This document shows positions 1 to 27,734 of a DNA stretch of 32,079 bases, in pieces. The stretch is taken from positions 1 to 32,079 of IMG/VR virus record IMGVR_UViG_3300042301_003634. One strand, written 5' to 3'. Made by a program: the position numbers and the translations under genes. Origin of the DNA: a virus. How positions within the stretch are numbered: the stretch's first letter is position 1; every line of letters starts with the position of its first letter. The notes under the pieces were generated by a model, which saw nothing but the letters and a program-made list of their open reading frames with translations, did not search any database and was not told the origin of the DNA.

Positions 1-655
1 TAAGTAGGCGACTTTCGTTAAAACCTAGTGAACACTTGTGCTTATAATTGTTTTAGAATACTTTGACATTTTCCTTAATAATGATAAGTGTTTGTGTTGT
101 GGATGGTAGAAGTTGTGGTCCACTATAAGCTCCGTTATCTTTTGAACAACAGAATACTAAACAACTCCTTGAGATATCCCTACCTCCATATTTCAAGTTT
201 ACTTCAAAAAGAGACCTTGGTAGGTCATCCTTAGGGATGATAGCGACACCACTCGTTCTTCATCTTACCTTTCGATTTTAAGCCAACTATAATATTGGAA
301 CTCGCAATGATATGATTGGATGACCATACTTTTCACATAATTCCTATCGGTTATTCTTATAGGAGTTCCCTCCGCAACTTGACAACCCACATTGCCAAGT
401 CACCCAACCACTTTCGCTAAAGCGTTGCCCTCACTACTGAAGGTTGGATGATATCCGACTTGTATACTCGAGCTCCGTTGCCGAAGCCGCAAACCTGTTA
501 ACACAACAGATTCACTTTAGCCTACTTTCGTAGTTTATTTAACGACCATATACGGCCGATTATCGTTTTTCAAATCAACATAATTCCGAAGAACTACATT
601 AACCTGATGGATAATTCATTTTTTTCAAAGAACTCGTTTCGGTTATTCCCGAATT
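1..655 (-). ncRNA. Large structured non-coding RNA, partial at the window edge (ROOL/GOLLD-like class is a guess)
   Basis: No credible reading frame covers this stretch, but the minus strand folds very well. Going 5' to 3' on that strand: stem 638-642/649-653; a 10-bp hairpin with a UUCG loop (577-600); a CTAC stem with a GAAA loop (522-533); stem 404-409/442-447; an 8-bp hairpin (377-400); a GGAG/CTCC stem with a GGAA loop (362-373); a perfect 8-bp long-range helix 223-230/318-325; and a helix joining the two ends, 27-32/511-516. The UUCG, GAAA and GGAA loops only make sense on the minus strand, which fixes the orientation. The composition is less A+T-rich than the neighbours. The 5' end is set by promoter 662-691 and the 3' end lies beyond base 1. 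Giant phage RNAs near tRNA genes (GOLLD, ROOL) are known; I cannot assign this one to either from memory. It does not look like tmRNA, RNase P RNA, or a group I or II intron core. Confidence 0.75.
625..633 (-). promoter_or_regulatory. boxA-like antitermination signal in the leader of the large RNA
   Basis: The minus strand reads GTTCTTTGA followed by an A-run, close to the boxA of Bacillus rRNA leaders (GTTCTTTGAAAA), which binds NusB and S10 and stops premature termination. It lies about 25 bases after the expected transcription start and just before the structured body. The same nonamer sits at the same place ahead of the tRNA (1581-1589). The function is inferred from the sequence match and the position. 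Confidence 0.5.
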
Positions 656-661
656 GTTTAA

Positions 662-691
662 CAAAGATAAGACATTTTTTTCATTTGTCAA
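662..691 (-). promoter_or_regulatory. Promoter P1 for the large RNA (Bacteroidota type)
   Basis: On the minus strand a TTGACA box (its TTG at 691-689) is followed after exactly 19 bases by TATCTTTG (669-662), which fits the Bacteroidota consensus TTG ... TAnnTTTG. It belongs to a 41-base repeat (661-702) whose other copies are at 776-817 and 1608-1649. Transcription should start near 655 and read left into the structured RNA. Confidence 0.75.
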
Positions 692-776
692 GACCTTTGT
701 TGTTTTTTTTTTTGACAACCTTACTCTATAAACTACCGATAATGAGATTTGACTTCGGTGGTCGTCAATTGTTTTA
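692..776 (-). other. Short structured spacer between promoters P2 and P1
   Basis: Downstream of P2 the minus strand has a 7-bp stem (760-766 with 714-720, one G-U pair) enclosing a perfect 5-bp stem (735-739 with 755-759). The outer stem has the length of a tRNA acceptor stem, but only 39 bases lie between its arms, too few for a tRNA. The first bases after P2 resemble those after P1 (a shared AAACAATT), so this may be a truncated leader left by duplication of the promoter, or a small RNA. An A-run follows on this strand, so it is not a terminator. Confidence 0.4.
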
Positions 777-806
777 CAAAGATAAGACATTTTTTTCATT
801 TGTCAA
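777..806 (-). promoter_or_regulatory. Promoter P2, overlapping the end of the GIY-YIG gene
   Basis: It has the same layout as P1: TTGACA with its TTG at 806-804, 19 bases, then TATCTTTG at 784-777. The 40 bases around it match P1 exactly. The TTGACA box is also the last codons (Leu-Asp-Lys, then TGA) of the homing endonuclease gene at 796-1455, so the end of the coding sequence lies inside the promoter repeat. No boxA follows it. Confidence 0.7.
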
Positions 807-1455
807 GACCTTTGTTTTTTTTTAGAATTGTTCTACCAAATTTCCAATTATCCGGTAAAGAACTCTCTTTTTTTATTTTTTTATTCTCAACTCCATTCGT
901 TATCCAACAAGTACCAAATTGTGAATTACCACTTCCTTGTTGATATTTGGAGTTAGCTTCTCCTATTTTTCTTTTACTTATTTCTTTATGTTTTTTACCT
1001 AACCATTTTTGTTGATTTTTCAGTTTTGAACTAATTTTAGAAATGATTTTCTCACGATATTCAAGGTCAGTTCTCATTCGTTCATTATGTCTTTTACCCA
1101 AAATCCTTAAAACCGCTCTACCTCCAGCGGCGTGCCAATTATACGCATGTTCTTCGTTAATTAACCCACCAGTACCACCTAATTTTAAATTTAAACACAA
1201 AGGGTCTTTAATTAATTCACTATCAACTATTTTTTTTTCAGCTTCAATTAGTAATTTTCTATTTTCGAAAAACTCTAAATACTCTATTTTAAAATTTTCT
1301 TTACCATATTTTCTTATTGAGTACCATAATTTTTTCCCACTACCAATATAACCATCATTTAAGTTGTCTGTCGAGTGCATTCCTATATAATATTTTTCAT
1401 TCACAATATTTGTTGTTTTATAAATGAAATGATATTTCTTTTGTTTTCTTCCCAT
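796..1455 (-). CDS. GIY-YIG homing endonuclease (free-standing)
   Basis: This is a 219-residue site-specific DNA endonuclease of the mobile kind common in large phages; it spreads by cutting alleles that lack it. The GIY-YIG half is at the N terminus: FIYKTTN (10-16), YYIGMHST (22-29), GYIGSG (35-40) and a conserved Glu in the helix near 71-73. The C-terminal half has basic segments (LGKRHNERMR, then WLGKKHKE) and a final GTCWITNG motif, typical of DNA-binding modules in this group. The frame stays open nine codons upstream, but MGRKQKK is the natural start, directly after a TATTTATT motif. It lies 38 bases downstream of the tRNA-like gene and is probably co-transcribed with it from P3. Its last codons form part of promoter P2, a sign that tRNA plus endonuclease arrived as one cassette. 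Confidence 0.85.
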   Translation of the reverse strand: MGRKQKKYHFIYKTTNIVNEKYYIGMHSTDNLNDGYIGSGKKLWYSIRKYGKENFKIEYLEFFENRKLLIEAEKKIVDSELIKDPLCLNLKLGGTGGLINEEHAYNWHAAGGRAVLRILGKRHNERMRTDLEYREKIISKISSKLKNQQKWLGKKHKEISKRKIGEANSKYQQGSGNSQFGTCWITNGVENKKIKKESSLPDNWKFGRTILKKNKGLDK

Positions 1456-1493
1456 ATAAATAAATATGAGAAGAAAGTACAAAAGTCCAGAGT

Positions 1494-1564
1494 TGCAGTG
1501 CCTTGGAATCGAACCAAGCTAAGTGAGCTTATGAGACTCATGGAACTCCCTGCCCCCCGCCTGC
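1494..1564 (-). tRNA. tRNA-like gene, anticodon CAU (Met or Ile2 type), imperfect
   Basis: The anticodon arm is a 5-bp stem (TGAGT/GCTCA, one G-U pair) with loop CTCATAA, giving anticodon CAU. The T arm is perfect: CTTGG, TTCGATT, CCAAG. The 3' acceptor strand GCACTGC plus discriminator A pairs with the 5' strand GCAGGC only if one A is bulged. The D arm is short and G-rich (GGGG/TTCC with a loop containing GGG). No CCA is encoded. The defects suggest an unusual, decaying or recently altered tRNA. P3 and a boxA-like site lie just upstream. CAU would decode AUG, or AUA if the C is modified to lysidine. Confidence 0.6.
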
Positions 1565-1580
1565 TGTATATTTTTTTATT

Positions 1581-1589
1581 TCAAAGAAC
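1581..1589 (-). promoter_or_regulatory. boxA-like signal ahead of the tRNA-like gene
   Basis: The minus strand reads GTTCTTTGA followed by AA, identical in its core to the site at 625-633. It lies about 20 bases after the expected P3 start and 17 bases before the tRNA. Two independent copies at matching places support a role in antitermination of stable-RNA transcripts; the role itself is inferred. Confidence 0.45.
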
Positions 1590-1608
1590 TTATTTCCTAA
1601 TTGGACTA

Positions 1609-1638
1609 CAAAGATACAACATTTTTTTCATCTGTCAA
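1609..1638 (-). promoter_or_regulatory. Promoter P3 for the tRNA-like gene and GIY-YIG gene
   Basis: TTGACA (TTG at 1638-1636), 19 bases, then TATCTTTG (1616-1609) on the minus strand. The surrounding 41 bases (1608-1649) differ from P1 and P2 at about three positions. Transcription should start near 1602, giving a short leader with a boxA-like site before the tRNA. Confidence 0.7.
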
Positions 1639-1654
1639 GACCTTTGTTAAAAAT

Positions 1655-1698
1655 ACCCCACCTAATATTTTTGTTTTTACACTTAACACCGGTGGGGT
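1655..1698. repeat. Inverted repeat next to P3, possible terminator or insulator
   Basis: A perfect 8-bp stem (1655-1662 with 1691-1698, ACCCCACC/GGTGGGGT) encloses a 28-base A+T-rich loop. T-rich sequence follows on both strands (TTGTTTTTG on plus, ATTTTTAAC on minus), so it could end transcription either way. It lies just upstream of P3. The long loop is unusual for a simple terminator. Confidence 0.35.
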
Positions 1699-1886
1699 TG
1701 TTTTTGAGACTCTCATCTCATTTGTTCCGCAAATTTAAGACAAAATTCTCATCTTGTCCGTATTTTTTTTGCGTGATATAAAGTTGGGGGTATTTATCCT
1801 TACGGATGAGATAATAAATATACGATAGTTTATGAAAAATCCAAATTTTTTTTATAATCTAATCAAATATTTTTATATTTATAGTT
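1699..1886. other. Non-coding gap upstream of the DUF192 gene
   Basis: No gene is visible. CTCATCTCATTTGTTCCG (about 1713-1730) and a shorter version, CTCATCTTGTCCG, about 35 bases later form an imperfect direct repeat. A TCCGTA/TACGGA pair could form a long-range hairpin across 1757-1806. Just before the next gene is TATTTATA (1876-1883), four bases from its ATG and matching the octamer seen ahead of many genes here. Confidence 0.35.
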
Positions 1887-9716: not shown

Positions 9717-10721
9717 ATGAGTAGAATTAAAGTTTTTATTGATAAGTTTAATGAAGGTGATACTGACTTCATCGAACATATGAATGGGTTTGGGACTTTT
9801 TTAAAAATGCTTGAAAAACGAGGTTTAATCAATGAACTAGATTTTAACCAAATTTATGATAGTGAATATGAAAATGAATTTCTAATATTTTTATATAACC
9901 ATAACAATGATGAGTTTTGGAATATCGTAAGTAACCATCTTTCCGATTTAAAAATTGAGAATGGTGTTCCAACCATAGTTATTAATGAACCCGGAGAATT
10001 CGCTAATCTATTTTGTAATAATAGAGAGATTAGTACCGATACAATTGAAGCGCTTTTAAATGGTGAATATGATAGTCATTCCTATGGTTGGAGTTCTTAT
10101 GACTTAACCGACGATGTTTATCGTGATGTAATTGAAGAACTAACCAAGGAAAACTTATTATACCTAAAAGAATATATTATTAAATCGTTAGATGGTGAAC
10201 AAATTACTCCTCATACTGAATTACTTGAAGATTATGCTGAACAACAAGGTCATCCTGATTATGTTATTATTGACCAATCAAATATAGACCAAGTGGTTGA
10301 TGATTCAGAGACTATGAATGAACTAATGGATAATGAACTTGATGAATTAAAAAGTGAGTTATATAATATATATGGTTCCGCATACAATAGTGCATATGAA
10401 GAAGAATTGTACGAAGATGTTTGGAACGAATTAGAAACTTATTTTGAAAAAGGTCAGTGGAATAGTAAACTTCACCCATATAAAGAAAATACTTCAATTG
10501 AAAATTATACTGCAGTAATCAAAGATGTTGATTCAATCATTTTGGATTTTTTAGAACAAAATAAAGGTCATTATGGTGCATATGGTTCGTTAGAATATTA
10601 TGGTTCATTAATGAGTGTAATCAACGAAACAAGAGATTGTTTAAGTTTTCACCCTTCTGATTATCCAGACTCAAGATTAGTTGATAAAAATATCAATATG
10701 TATTTTGGAGATTATATCTAA
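9717..10721 (+). CDS. Hypothetical acidic protein
   Basis: A 334-residue, strongly acidic protein rich in Glu, Asp, Asn and Tyr, with no signal, membrane segment or recognised motif. The helical middle (ELMDNELDELKSELYNIYG...) recalls the acidic tail of the WCT protein that is divergently encoded at 7648, but I see no firm homology. A TATTTATA octamer (9705-9712) ends four bases before the ATG, directly after the upstream terminator, so it probably has its own promoter. Confidence 0.65.
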   Translation: MSRIKVFIDKFNEGDTDFIEHMNGFGTFLKMLEKRGLINELDFNQIYDSEYENEFLIFLYNHNNDEFWNIVSNHLSDLKIENGVPTIVINEPGEFANLFCNNREISTDTIEALLNGEYDSHSYGWSSYDLTDDVYRDVIEELTKENLLYLKEYIIKSLDGEQITPHTELLEDYAEQQGHPDYVIIDQSNIDQVVDDSETMNELMDNELDELKSELYNIYGSAYNSAYEEELYEDVWNELETYFEKGQWNSKLHPYKENTSIENYTAVIKDVDSIILDFLEQNKGHYGAYGSLEYYGSLMSVINETRDCLSFHPSDYPDSRLVDKNINMYFGDYI

Positions 10722-14476: not shown

Positions 14477-16297
14477 TTAATCTTTAATAAACTCCCATAA
14501 TCCATCACCAGAAGCCTCTGTTTCTTCTTTAAATCTATCACTTAGAACAAGATTATCACAACCTCTTAAATTAGTAAAAAGTAAAAAAGGTAAATCAATC
14601 AAACAATCAGGTATCGATTCAAGTTTTTTATTATCTTTTAAAGAGATAAATTGTAATTTTGAAAGATTACAAATTGCATTAGGAAGACTACTTATACAAT
14701 TATGAAGCGTTAATGTAATTAAATTTTTTAATCTACCAATAGATTCCGGAATTTGAATCGTAATATCGCTATCCTTACTCTCAATTTGAATAATTGTTAA
14801 AGTTTCAGGTAAATTACTAAACAATTCATCTAATCCATATAATGCAACGTATTTACCTACGTCACCAGAATCAAATCCGGTAATCACCAATCTATCTCCA
14901 CTAGTCTTAAGAGTTGCCGCTAGTCTTGGTTTTAATTCCTCTTTAACTTTCTTTAACATTGGCGTATTCAGAAGTGAAATATCTTCAATACTTAAATTTC
15001 TAATATCTTTAGTTTTAATACTATCAATTTTTTTACTAATATAATATTTTAACACATCCGATTCTGAATTTGAAATCATATTAGAGGATAAGTTCATTCC
15101 CAATGCAATATATTTTTTCTTTAATTCAGAAGTTAAATTAGAGTATTGAATATCAGATAATATTGGACTATTGTATTCTAACCACATTTCAACTTGTTGT
15201 GGATTTTCGAAACTCTTCATTGGATTGTCACCAACTCTAGCATTTTTAACAATATTAATTAATTCTATTTCTTCATCAGTTAAAGGTACCGGTTTAAACA
15301 CATTTTTTAACCCTTCAAGTTTTGGAACTTTTGAAACAATCTCATCCCAAGGTAAATTCGTACTACCGGCATATCGGTCTGAATTTGATTTATCGGCCAT
15401 TGATATTTCACCATTTCGGTCAACAAGAAGTACAGTTGCAAAATTTAAGTCATCAAAACTTTTATCCTCATCAATCACATAGTAAAGAGTTCTTCCATTA
15501 CCTAGTCTATAATTATAATACATATTACCACTACCTTCACGACTAGTACACCACCCTCGACCATTTTTTAATTGAATACATTGGTCTTTAGTTTTAGGTG
15601 CAAATATTTTTAAATTATTTTGGTCATAAACCAAATCGATATTTTCAACAGCTTGTTTTTTATTCGGACCCTCTTTTTTACTTTCCAAACCATCTAATAA
15701 ATGTTCTAACTCAATAAATGACATTGTGTTAACTCCTTTAGTTTCAACAGGTATTACATCAAAATTAGTCATATATTCCGTAATATAATACAAAATTTGG
15801 TCAGAAGTTAAATTAGAATTTTCTTTTGAGAATTTTTCAGTAAGTTTTTTAATTAAAAGTTTTTCATAAGTAGAACCATTATACCCAACAGGTTTTCTGT
15901 CAATCAAGTTAACTAATTTTAAATAATTAAGTTTATCAATATTTTGTAATTCTTCAGGTAATTCTGACTGAATCTCTAAAAACTTCTTAACATATTTTTT
16001 AAGTGATATATTTTCAACCTCAGATTCTTTTTTCTTAAATTTTGTAAAAGTATCTTTGAATTGTTTAGTAAATGTTTTACCATCAATATATGACTTTAAA
16101 TCGTTATAAGAATATTTCGTAATATCTCTTTTTGTTGTCGGTAAACCTTCTTTATATTTTTCAAATAAATCAATATATGACATTATAGTTTCTTCATTGT
16201 CTGAAGTCTCATCTTTAAATTTCGCATATAATTGTTTTTTTACCTTATCAGATACCTCGATTAAGATATTTTCATTTAATGTTTTTAATAGTTTCAT
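14477..16297 (-). CDS. WCT-motif protein with leucine-rich repeats; candidate head protein
   Basis: A 606-residue protein. Residues 1-20 (MKLLKTLNENILIEV) resemble a capsid-targeting leader with an L-I-E site. Two helical blocks follow (35-90 and 100-205), each with an LP...DI or NIDKL turn like that of the paralogues. The WCT domain is at about 220-320: DLVYD, Cys240, GRGWCTS (246-252), YYNYRLGNG, LYYVID. The last 130 residues are leucine-rich repeats of about 23 residues (IPESIGRLKNLITLTLHNC, LPNAICNLSKLQFISLKDN, IPDCLIDLPFL). It is a paralogue of the gene at 16334 over the WCT and LRR parts. LRRs usually bind proteins, so a virion or injected host-targeting protein is possible. TATAAATA on plus (16314-16321) lies upstream. 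Confidence 0.75.
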   Translation of the reverse strand: MKLLKTLNENILIEVSDKVKKQLYAKFKDETSDNEETIMSYIDLFEKYKEGLPTTKRDITKYSYNDLKSYIDGKTFTKQFKDTFTKFKKKESEVENISLKKYVKKFLEIQSELPEELQNIDKLNYLKLVNLIDRKPVGYNGSTYEKLLIKKLTEKFSKENSNLTSDQILYYITEYMTNFDVIPVETKGVNTMSFIELEHLLDGLESKKEGPNKKQAVENIDLVYDQNNLKIFAPKTKDQCIQLKNGRGWCTSREGSGNMYYNYRLGNGRTLYYVIDEDKSFDDLNFATVLLVDRNGEISMADKSNSDRYAGSTNLPWDEIVSKVPKLEGLKNVFKPVPLTDEEIELINIVKNARVGDNPMKSFENPQQVEMWLEYNSPILSDIQYSNLTSELKKKYIALGMNLSSNMISNSESDVLKYYISKKIDSIKTKDIRNLSIEDISLLNTPMLKKVKEELKPRLAATLKTSGDRLVITGFDSGDVGKYVALYGLDELFSNLPETLTIIQIESKDSDITIQIPESIGRLKNLITLTLHNCISSLPNAICNLSKLQFISLKDNKKLESIPDCLIDLPFLLFTNLRGCDNLVLSDRFKEETEASGDGLWEFIKD

Positions 16298-16333
16298 TTT
16301 TACACTTATTTAATATAAATATTTAATAATTTA

Positions 16334-17656
16334 TTATATTTTACCCATATTCCACAACCCTAATCCCATACTTTCAGCTCTTTCTTCTATTGCTTTAGGT
16401 AATTGAATATTTTGACTACCCTTTAAATTGATGAAAGCTAAATTTGGTAAATCAACAACACATTCAGGGATGGTTTTTAATTTGTCGTTATTGACTAATG
16501 ATAAGAATTCCAAATTAGTTAATTGACATATACTATCAGTAATACTATCAATACAATTTTCTAATATCATTAATTTTAACTTCTTAAATCTACCAATTGA
16601 ATCGGGTATTGTAATAATAATGTTATTTTTATCTCTGTTTTGAATTTGTAATTCAGTTAATGTGTCCGGTAAAGTTTCAATCAAATCATCTAACCCATAT
16701 AAACCAATGAATTTACCCACCGCACCTGTACTGAAACCATCTATAATTAATTTCTTCCCATTTACCATCAAACCTTTTGCAAATTCAGGTTTAAAAAAAT
16801 CTTTTAATTCGGCCATAGGTCCATTCAAATATTTAACTAAATCGATTTGGCGGTCATCTTTGTCCATAAATTGATTCTCCTGAAAATGAAATTGATATCT
16901 TTCTTTTGGTAATCCTGATTTACCCATAATATTTGTATCATTAGGGTCATATATAACATATAATGGTCCCTTTGGAATATATGTGTTTTCAAAATAACTT
17001 AATCCCGGAGCTGAAGTACACCATCTTGTTTCTATCATATTATCACCATAAAAACAAGCGGCTTCTTTACCTAAAGGAGTATTATCTTTAATTCTAACAA
17101 CTCTCCACTTATTACCTTCGTAAACCAATTCAGCACCTGGATGAACTTCCGCAGATTTTCTTTCAGACTTACTTGTTGATGCAATAGTTAAATCAAAATC
17201 CTTAACCGCATCATATAATGAAGATGGAGTCAATTTGTTAATATCCCTCATTTCTTTAGGTAATCTATTCTTAAATCTCTCAAACTTTATAAGGTCTTGT
17301 GTAACCTTGAATAAATCCTCCATAAACAAATCTTTAACTCGTTTTACTTCTTTCTCATATCCATAATTACCAGGTTGTCTTTCAGTTTTAGGTGATAAAT
17401 AATTTTTGATTAACCATTGAACATATTTACCCGCTTTAACTTTACCCAGTTCTTTGGAATCGGCAGTTAGCATATTAACATTATTGGTTCTTGTCGTTGG
17501 GTCCGCATTAACCAATATAGTAAATTCATCTTTATTTAACTTTGGTTTAATAATATTACCCTCCTTATCTTTCGATGGTTTAGTCAACGCATCAAATAAT
17601 AATTCAATTCTAGATTGTTCAAGGATTACTTTTTTCAATAATGGTGTGATTTTCAT
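16334..17656 (-). CDS. WCT-motif protein with leucine-rich repeats; candidate head protein
   Basis: A 440-residue paralogue of the 14477 gene. The leader MKITPLLKKVILEQS ends in I-L-E, a T4-like head-protease site. The helical module has FKNRLPKEMRDINKL (about 128-142). The WCT domain is at about 170-255: ELVYEGNKW, Cys201, RWCTS (211-215), YFENTYIPKG, PLYVIYD, then FHFQENQFMDKDD. Residues 305-440 are leucine-rich repeats (IPDSIGRFKKLKLMILENC, ICQLTNLEFLSLVNN, IPECVVDLPNLAFINLKG). The LRR block is the most alike part of the two paralogues, suggesting a tandem duplication. A Bacteroidota-type promoter (17694-17725) and an octamer (17675-17682) lie upstream, so this gene probably starts the transcript. 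Confidence 0.75.
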   Translation of the reverse strand: MKITPLLKKVILEQSRIELLFDALTKPSKDKEGNIIKPKLNKDEFTILVNADPTTRTNNVNMLTADSKELGKVKAGKYVQWLIKNYLSPKTERQPGNYGYEKEVKRVKDLFMEDLFKVTQDLIKFERFKNRLPKEMRDINKLTPSSLYDAVKDFDLTIASTSKSERKSAEVHPGAELVYEGNKWRVVRIKDNTPLGKEAACFYGDNMIETRWCTSAPGLSYFENTYIPKGPLYVIYDPNDTNIMGKSGLPKERYQFHFQENQFMDKDDRQIDLVKYLNGPMAELKDFFKPEFAKGLMVNGKKLIIDGFSTGAVGKFIGLYGLDDLIETLPDTLTELQIQNRDKNNIIITIPDSIGRFKKLKLMILENCIDSITDSICQLTNLEFLSLVNNDKLKTIPECVVDLPNLAFINLKGSQNIQLPKAIEERAESMGLGLWNMGKI

Positions 17657-26936: not shown

Positions 26937-27734
26937 TTACAAATAATCAAATAGAGGACCCGACTCATTTCTTAACTTCCTTAACGCTTTTTCTTTAATC
27001 TGTCTAACTCTTTCTTTAGTTAGAGAAAAATCATTACCTATATCTTCTAAGGTTCTTGTATTCCCGGATAATCCAAAATAATCCTCAATGATTAAACGTT
27101 CACGATTATCTAAAACATTTAACATATTCAATAATCTATCTTTTAACGAATTCTCACTTGAAAGGTTTGTATCCACCATTTCAGCGTTTGGATTTACTAA
27201 GATATCAACTAAAGTGTCGCCCTCTTCATTAACCGGATTATCTAAATTAATTGTATATGGTAATGAAGTGAATTTACTTGGTAATTCAACACCAGCACTA
27301 TCCAATTCTTTTTTGGCTCTATGTAATTCCTGAATTACATTTACCGGTAGTCGTATTGTTCTTGCGTTCTCATTTAAAGATTGGAGGATAGATTGTCTAA
27401 CCCACCATACCGCATAAGAGATAAATCTTAATTTTTTAGACCAATCAAAATTCTCAATTGCCTTCATTAAACCATAATTACCCTCAGAAATTAAATCCGA
27501 TAAATCCAACCCTTGATTTTGATATTGTTTGCAAACCGTAATAACAAATCTTAAATTACCTTCCAACAATTCTTGTTGAATTTGTTTCTTCTCTTGTTCT
27601 GTAATGTCTTGAGATAACATTCTTTCCGATAGTTCTTTTTCTCTATCAGGTGTCATTACAGGTAATTTACGAATGTCTTTAAGATATTCCGCAATTTCTT
27701 CTTGATTGATGTGAATTTTTGATTTTTCTTTCAT
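26937..27734 (-). CDS. Phage-encoded sigma-70 family factor, Bacteroidota RpoD-like
   Basis: A 265-residue primary-type sigma factor that would direct host RNA polymerase to phage promoters. Region 1.2 is at 11-40. Region 2 is at 55-130: LLEGNLRFVITVCKQYQNQG, DLISEGNYGLMKAIENFD, RFISYAVWWVRQSILQSL (2.3-2.4), then ARTIRLP. Region 4 is at 198-258, with the helix-turn-helix TLEDIGNDFSLTKERVRQIKEKALRKL. Between them, domain 3 is shorter than in host RpoD: the helices that usually follow LPxN and contact the extended -10 are mostly missing. DTLVDILVNPNAEM (region 3.2-like) is retained. It probably reads TAnnTTTG or the TATTTAT(A/T) octamer. It is three bases downstream of the 175-residue gene in one operon. 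Confidence 0.9.
   Translation of the reverse strand: MKEKSKIHINQEEIAEYLKDIRKLPVMTPDREKELSERMLSQDITEQEKKQIQQELLEGNLRFVITVCKQYQNQGLDLSDLISEGNYGLMKAIENFDWSKKLRFISYAVWWVRQSILQSLNENARTIRLPVNVIQELHRAKKELDSAGVELPSKFTSLPYTINLDNPVNEEGDTLVDILVNPNAEMVDTNLSSENSLKDRLLNMLNVLDNRERLIIEDYFGLSGNTRTLEDIGNDFSLTKERVRQIKEKALRKLRNESGPLFDYL

Follow-up and report, generated by a model that had tools for sequence, protein, structure and literature searches.

The GOLLD RNA env-38, found downstream of a Met-tRNA, was shown by cryo-EM to form a D7-symmetric 14-mer hollow cage, in which the 5′ domains constitute the caps and the 3′ domains the rings (PMC12286853). The interior of this cage is empty save for a disordered linker, and the authors name several possible cargoes. 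The same paper cites pull-downs in which GOLLD bound ribosomes, notes that GOLLD expression is reported to rise during phage lysis, and mentions that ROOL RNA forms an 8-mer cage (PMC12286853). The structure formed by GOLLD ranks among the largest known that consist of RNA only.

The window analysed here, 32,079 bases in length, comprises an IMG/VR virus record in full, and its base 1 is therefore a contig end. The gene-free left end of the window is a phage GOLLD RNA gene, of which the 5′ two thirds are present, on the minus strand (Table 1). GOLLD is a known family, and this copy, which the contig end cuts short, is a genuine member of it; we found no published record of GOLLD in this phage lineage. 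It resembles env-38 in (i) the universal 3′ domain (model positions 1-161 here, 1-416 in relatives), (ii) a separate, less conserved 5′ domain, (iii) a variable linker, and (iv) its location in a phage (here an IMG/VR record), near a tRNA-like gene, with tRNA-Met upstream in relatives. In contrast to env-38, the window RNA has a 5′ domain common only to related phages among those tested, carries a conserved boxA leader, and is encoded by a Mahaphage-related Bacteroidota phage.

Table 1. Predicted features of the left part of the window
Feature	Position	Strand	Basis
GOLLD RNA gene, 5′ two thirds; transcript from approx. 656 to base 1, cut by the contig end	1..656	-	cmscan (RF02032); homologues in L108, L006 and L048; covariation
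Universal GOLLD 3′ domain, first 161 of 416 positions, including the variable linker (approx. 107-35)	1..169	-	94.1 bits, E = 8.7e-25
Lineage-specific GOLLD 5′ domain, 18 covarying helices	170..562	-	covariation; the window copy forms each of the 99 consensus pairs
boxA-like GTTCTTTGAA in the GOLLD leader	624..633	-	exact in 39 of 42 rows
GOLLD promoter P1: TTGAC (691-687), -7 element TATCTTTG (669-662)	662..691	-	sequence
Promoter P2, near-identical to P1 and followed by a short hairpin spacer (776-700)	777..806	-	sequence; blastn repeat
GIY-YIG (SegA-like) homing endonuclease, ATG at 1455	796..1455	-	phrog_314 (E = 1.4e-37); PF01541 just below cut-off
tRNA(CAU)-like gene, imperfect acceptor stem	1494..1564	-	cloverleaf-like MFE fold, CAU anticodon loop
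boxA-like GTTCTTTGAA preceding the tRNA-like gene	1580..1589	-	sequence
Promoter P3, upstream of the tRNA-like gene	1609..1638	-	sequence; repeat match (1560-1648)

Identity and structure of the RNA

A covariance model search by E-value aligned positions 169-1 of the minus strand with model positions 1-161 of GOLLD (Rfam RF02032, 416 positions; 94.1 bits, E = 8.7e-25), the match being flagged as 3′ truncated. The score lies under the gathering cut-off of 150, and an Rfam scan of the window at the gathering score reported nothing, because the last approx. 255 model positions are located past the contig end. Relatives that are 96-99% identical to the window at the DNA level across the RNA region run on past base 1 into the full GOLLD model. 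Complete copies occupy the same place in the near-identical L108 (326.9 bits) and L006 (325.8 bits), as well as in L048, and 13 of 14 relatives contain a complete GOLLD scoring 316-336 bits. GOLLD was detected above the cut-off in 35 of 41 viral records and in none of 14 control genomes, a count which serves as a check of the motif and not as an estimate of prevalence, since most of the viral records had been picked by the GOLLD motif.

The covariance models of ROOL, OLE and HEARO gave no match in the window at E-values up to 5. The first-pass annotation of this region had been reminded of both GOLLD and ROOL; the former resemblance was borne out by the match of the partial copy and by the scores of over 300 bits of its complete homologues, while the latter was not. 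ROOL is alike in principle, as a large, ornate, phage-linked RNA found near tRNA genes, but it is unrelated in sequence and structure to the window RNA. Screening of GTDB genomes with the GOLLD motif yielded matches which we dismissed as chance, since none of the fetched contigs matched either GOLLD profile. A DNA similarity search of window positions 1-1700 against cultured phages found T4-type homing endonucleases and no GOLLD.

The structure was examined in an alignment of 42 sequences, i.e. the window and 41 non-redundant representatives of 84 full-length GOLLD copies. RNAalifold predicted 184 pairs over the whole alignment, 112 of which show compensatory change. The 99 pairs of the 5′ domain (562-170) are formed in 97.8% of the alignment cells, compared with 86.1% after shuffling and at most 46% in the slid control; the structure was taken from the same alignment on which it was scored, and therefore the latter control overstates the contrast. 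Changes on both sides were observed in 63 of the 99 pairs (38 after shuffling), and the covariation value was 0.422 (0.192 after shuffling); none of 500 shuffles reached values as high. The per-pair counts are independent of the slid control: alignment columns 645/658, for example, contain CG in 15, GC in 10, AU in 7 and UA in 7 sequences. Among the covarying elements is a GAAA-capped hairpin (533-530/525-522). In the window copy all of the consensus pairs are formed in the 5′ domain, together with 25 of the 25 available in the 3′ domain. The RNA thus displays the extensive, covariation-supported secondary structure and the separate, more variable 5′ domain of GOLLD, with the linker as the least conserved part of the alignment.

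We found no ORF of at least 50 aa inside positions 1-598, and a protein-coding reading of this region was therefore rejected. As to the large and ornate non-coding fold claimed in the first-pass annotation, for which a lack of covariation in homologues was named as the refuting outcome, the region does form a large structure with evolutionary support. It does so on the minus strand, a point that the annotation had left unstated. The two long-range helices it described did not hold. The perfect 8-bp helix (223-230/318-325) is a string match only: standard pairing at five of the eight positions is seen in just 5-16 of 33-42 homologues, and its arms overlap, and clash with, two local covarying hairpins (329-324/315-310 and 226-222/217-213). 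The helix said to join the two ends (27-32/511-516) was also rejected as unconserved over the 42 sequences: at two of the six positions, standard pairs are present in just 2/42 and 8/42. Nor does it connect the ends of the RNA, because in relatives the RNA extends approx. 250 nt past base 1.

Two other readings of the left end were weighed. That this large phage RNA belongs to a new class and has no relation to GOLLD, as the first-pass annotation also allowed, would fit the absence of a match at the Rfam gathering score and the position of the 5′ domain outside the Rfam model, but this reading is already refuted by the GOLLD match of the partial copy and by the full-length GOLLD of near-identical relatives, and we give it practically no credence. 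It is also very improbable that the window GOLLD is a remnant, either broken by insertion of a homing endonuclease or really truncated at base 1. The endonuclease did insert nearby and the tRNA-like gene fails both ARAGORN and Rfam, but the insertion is located upstream of two intact promoter copies, the consensus pairs of both domains are all intact, and base 1 is a contig end past which the 99%-identical L108 continues into a complete GOLLD.

Promoters, boxA leader and neighbouring genes

The consensus of the -33/-7 promoter of Bacteroidota is TTG, TAnnTTTG. Promoter P1 agrees with this consensus, and places the expected transcription start near position 656, i.e. at the right-hand border given in the first-pass annotation, whose claim that the RNA has its own promoter was upheld by this minus-strand element ending just outside position 655. 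In the 84 GOLLD copies, TAnnTTTG occurs 490-640 nt ahead of the TTCAAAAGA motif.

The boxA-like leader noticed earlier was likewise recovered, on the minus strand (633-624), as GTTCTTTGAA, the sequence of the rRNA-type boxA. Its alignment columns are 99% identical, compared with a mean of 61% in the remaining leader (42 sequences). A total of 103 distinct copies of GTTCTTTGAA were counted over viral loci of 1.75 Mb. A TAnnTTTG is found in the 90 nt before 86 of these copies; 50 copies lead GOLLD, and the remainder include leaders of tRNA-Met and tmRNA genes. A conserved boxA is therefore found shortly past the expected transcription start of untranslated RNAs. The arrangement is similar to that of rRNA-type boxA leaders in that a long untranslated RNA carries GTTCTTTGAA shortly behind its start; those leaders drive rRNA, whereas here the element lies ahead of phage GOLLD, tRNA and tmRNA genes, and antitermination is putative. 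It is probable, judging from this placement, that boxA mediates antitermination of the long untranslated GOLLD transcript. We found no publication combining GOLLD with boxA, which, given the incomplete coverage of the literature, is weak evidence of novelty.

Most of the large genes of the window are located on the minus strand, as is the structured RNA. The GIY-YIG endonuclease is inserted between the tRNA-like gene and P2, and is missing from five relatives (L006, L108, L116, L118 and L124). An adjacent tRNA-like gene had been reported in the first-pass annotation, and its cloverleaf-like MFE fold and CAU loop (1564-1494, minus strand) agree with this, though neither ARAGORN nor Rfam called it in the window; relatives carry a standard tRNA-Met at this place. 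The three near-identical promoters (691-662, 806-777 and 1638-1609, minus strand) precede GOLLD, the short hairpin and the tRNA-like gene, respectively, and the layout of positions 662-1638 looks as if RNA genes were promoter cassettes. Elsewhere, the window encodes an RNA polymerase sigma factor (26937-27734; phrog_351, E = 1.2e-51), and two adjoining minus-strand ORFs (14477-17656; 606 and 440 aa) with weak matches to leucine-rich repeats, under the Pfam cut-offs.

GOLLD genes in related and other phages

The locus leads to dozens of distinct GOLLDs of Bacteroidota phages, including unannotated copies in genomes of 634-642 kb. Of 32 relatives whose sequence extends 2.5 kb or more downstream of a shared 467-aa gene, 26 have GOLLD after this gene and six have none at this place. 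LR745206 (634 kb) and LR756502 (642 kb) encode proteins that share 42-48% identity with the 467-aa product. Al-Shayeb et al. assigned the phages of this size in their study to a clade, the Mahaphages, and predicted Bacteroidetes as their hosts (PMC7162821). Both genomes carry an unannotated GOLLD (287 and 275 bits, respectively), and share with the window lineage not only the 3′ domain but also the 5′ domain, which matches the profile of this lineage (E = 6.6e-58 and 1.8e-51). The order of tRNA-Met, boxA and GOLLD in LR745206 is identical to that in the window. The differences are that the identity of the 467-aa protein is modest and that no exact boxA was found in LR756502. Based on these similarities, the window phage is considered a relative of the 634-642 kb Bacteroidota Mahaphages, which are among the largest phages known. 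We infer from this kinship, together with the Bacteroidota-type promoters, that its host is a bacterium of the Bacteroidota. Among papers that name GOLLD, none was found to deal with huge phages, judging by title and abstract, which, with coverage incomplete, is again weak evidence of novelty.

The locus also leads to GOLLD in two cultured Acinetobacter phages, AM24 (L212; KY000079.2:25213-25581, 215 bits) and vB_AciJM_313 (L213; PX050566.1:81344-81727, 207 bits), where it is not annotated as such and lies inside a tRNA array. These copies have only the 3′ domain in common with the window lineage; their 5′ domain is not recognisably related to that of the window (9.3 and 6.7 bits in nhmmer), and no GTTCTTTGAA boxA was seen in either phage.

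Some relatives contain a conserved RNA candidate of approx. 130-170 nt between the tRNA and GOLLD (L108:4724-4895 and L006:4187-4359, also L115, L200, L063, L077 and L172), which is absent from the window and, in L108 and L006, follows a GOLLD-type promoter copy of its own. This candidate has no Rfam match. It contains GTGAGGAAAGTGACTACGGG and faintly recalls RNase P RNA, a reading that was rejected for the extra cassette of L108, as Rfam gave it no support. Two inverted GOLLD copies with identical scores on one contig (L067:4423-4462 and 10059-10098) are possibly a palindromic assembly artefact.

Possible function and the company of tRNA and tmRNA genes

According to the mechanism that we propose, the minus-strand GOLLD gene would be transcribed from the Bacteroidota-type promoter into an untranslated RNA of approx. 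900 nt, and a boxA located approx. 25-35 nt past the start, as a putative NusB/S10-binding antitermination signal of the rRNA type, would keep RNA polymerase processive. The transcript would fold into the lineage-specific 5′ domain and the universal 3′ domain with its variable linker. By homology with the env-38 14-mer, it is likely that the RNA self-assembles into a multimeric hollow cage. Because of the company of tRNA-Met, tRNA arrays, tmRNA and ribosomes, a leading guess, still a tentative one, is that its role is linked to translation during infection, i.e. to the handling of tRNAs or ribosomes, or to ribosome rescue.

Twelve GOLLD records, on contigs of up to 304 kb, have a tmRNA above the cut-off; without exception, the tmRNA gene is convergent with GOLLD and located 113-1561 bp past its 3′ end. 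The set includes L202 (G014:120178-120580), L203, G001, G004, G007, G008, G010-G012, G021, G023 and G031; several of these records are close relatives, three of them having the same gap of 1561 bp and two the same gap of 113 bp, so that the number of independent lineages is lower than 12.

It may be that GOLLD, the neighbouring tRNA-Met and the phage tmRNA constitute one module, whose cage captures or protects ribosomes, stalled complexes or tRNAs. We regard this as possible but rather unlikely. The recurrent convergent tmRNA would fit such a module, as would the tRNA-Met that adjoins GOLLD in several relatives of the window and in the 634 kb phage, the tRNA arrays around the Acinetobacter copies, the boxA leaders common to GOLLD, tRNA and tmRNA genes, and the cited ribosome pull-down (PMC12286853). 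However, the clustering of phage RNA genes may stem from a common promoter and boxA style and from ancestry instead of function, and no tmRNA was found above the cut-off in L006 and L108, the closest relatives of the window, or in the two Mahaphages (LR745206 and LR756502). Alternatively, the RNA may hold cargo of another kind (metabolites, phage or stress proteins, or its own linker) and have no link to translation, its neighbourhood being only a convenient spot for RNA genes. We give this reading appreciable weight, though less than an even chance. It is consistent with the empty interior of the solved cage and the several cargoes listed for it (PMC12286853), and with the low conservation of the linker, but by itself it leaves the recurring tRNA and tmRNA company unaccounted for. 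The most specific form of the translation-linked reading, in which huge Bacteroidota phages would carry a boxA-driven module of tRNA-Met, GOLLD cage and tmRNA, with the cage capturing or processing stalled ribosomes, tRNAs or tmRNA in infection, is speculative and improbable as a whole. The conserved boxA and the recurring tmRNA and tRNA company provide two testable handles, on rRNA-type antitermination and on a role in translation, and it is the associations with boxA and tmRNA that merit further attention.

For the GOLLD-linked tmRNAs, ARAGORN predicts the tag peptides EKEQPLIVRG* and EKEQTLIIRG*, neither of which has the usual ALAA ending. The 3′ end of a phage tmRNA in one record is apparently interrupted near the T loop by a group I intron (L113:7880-8500, 96 bits).
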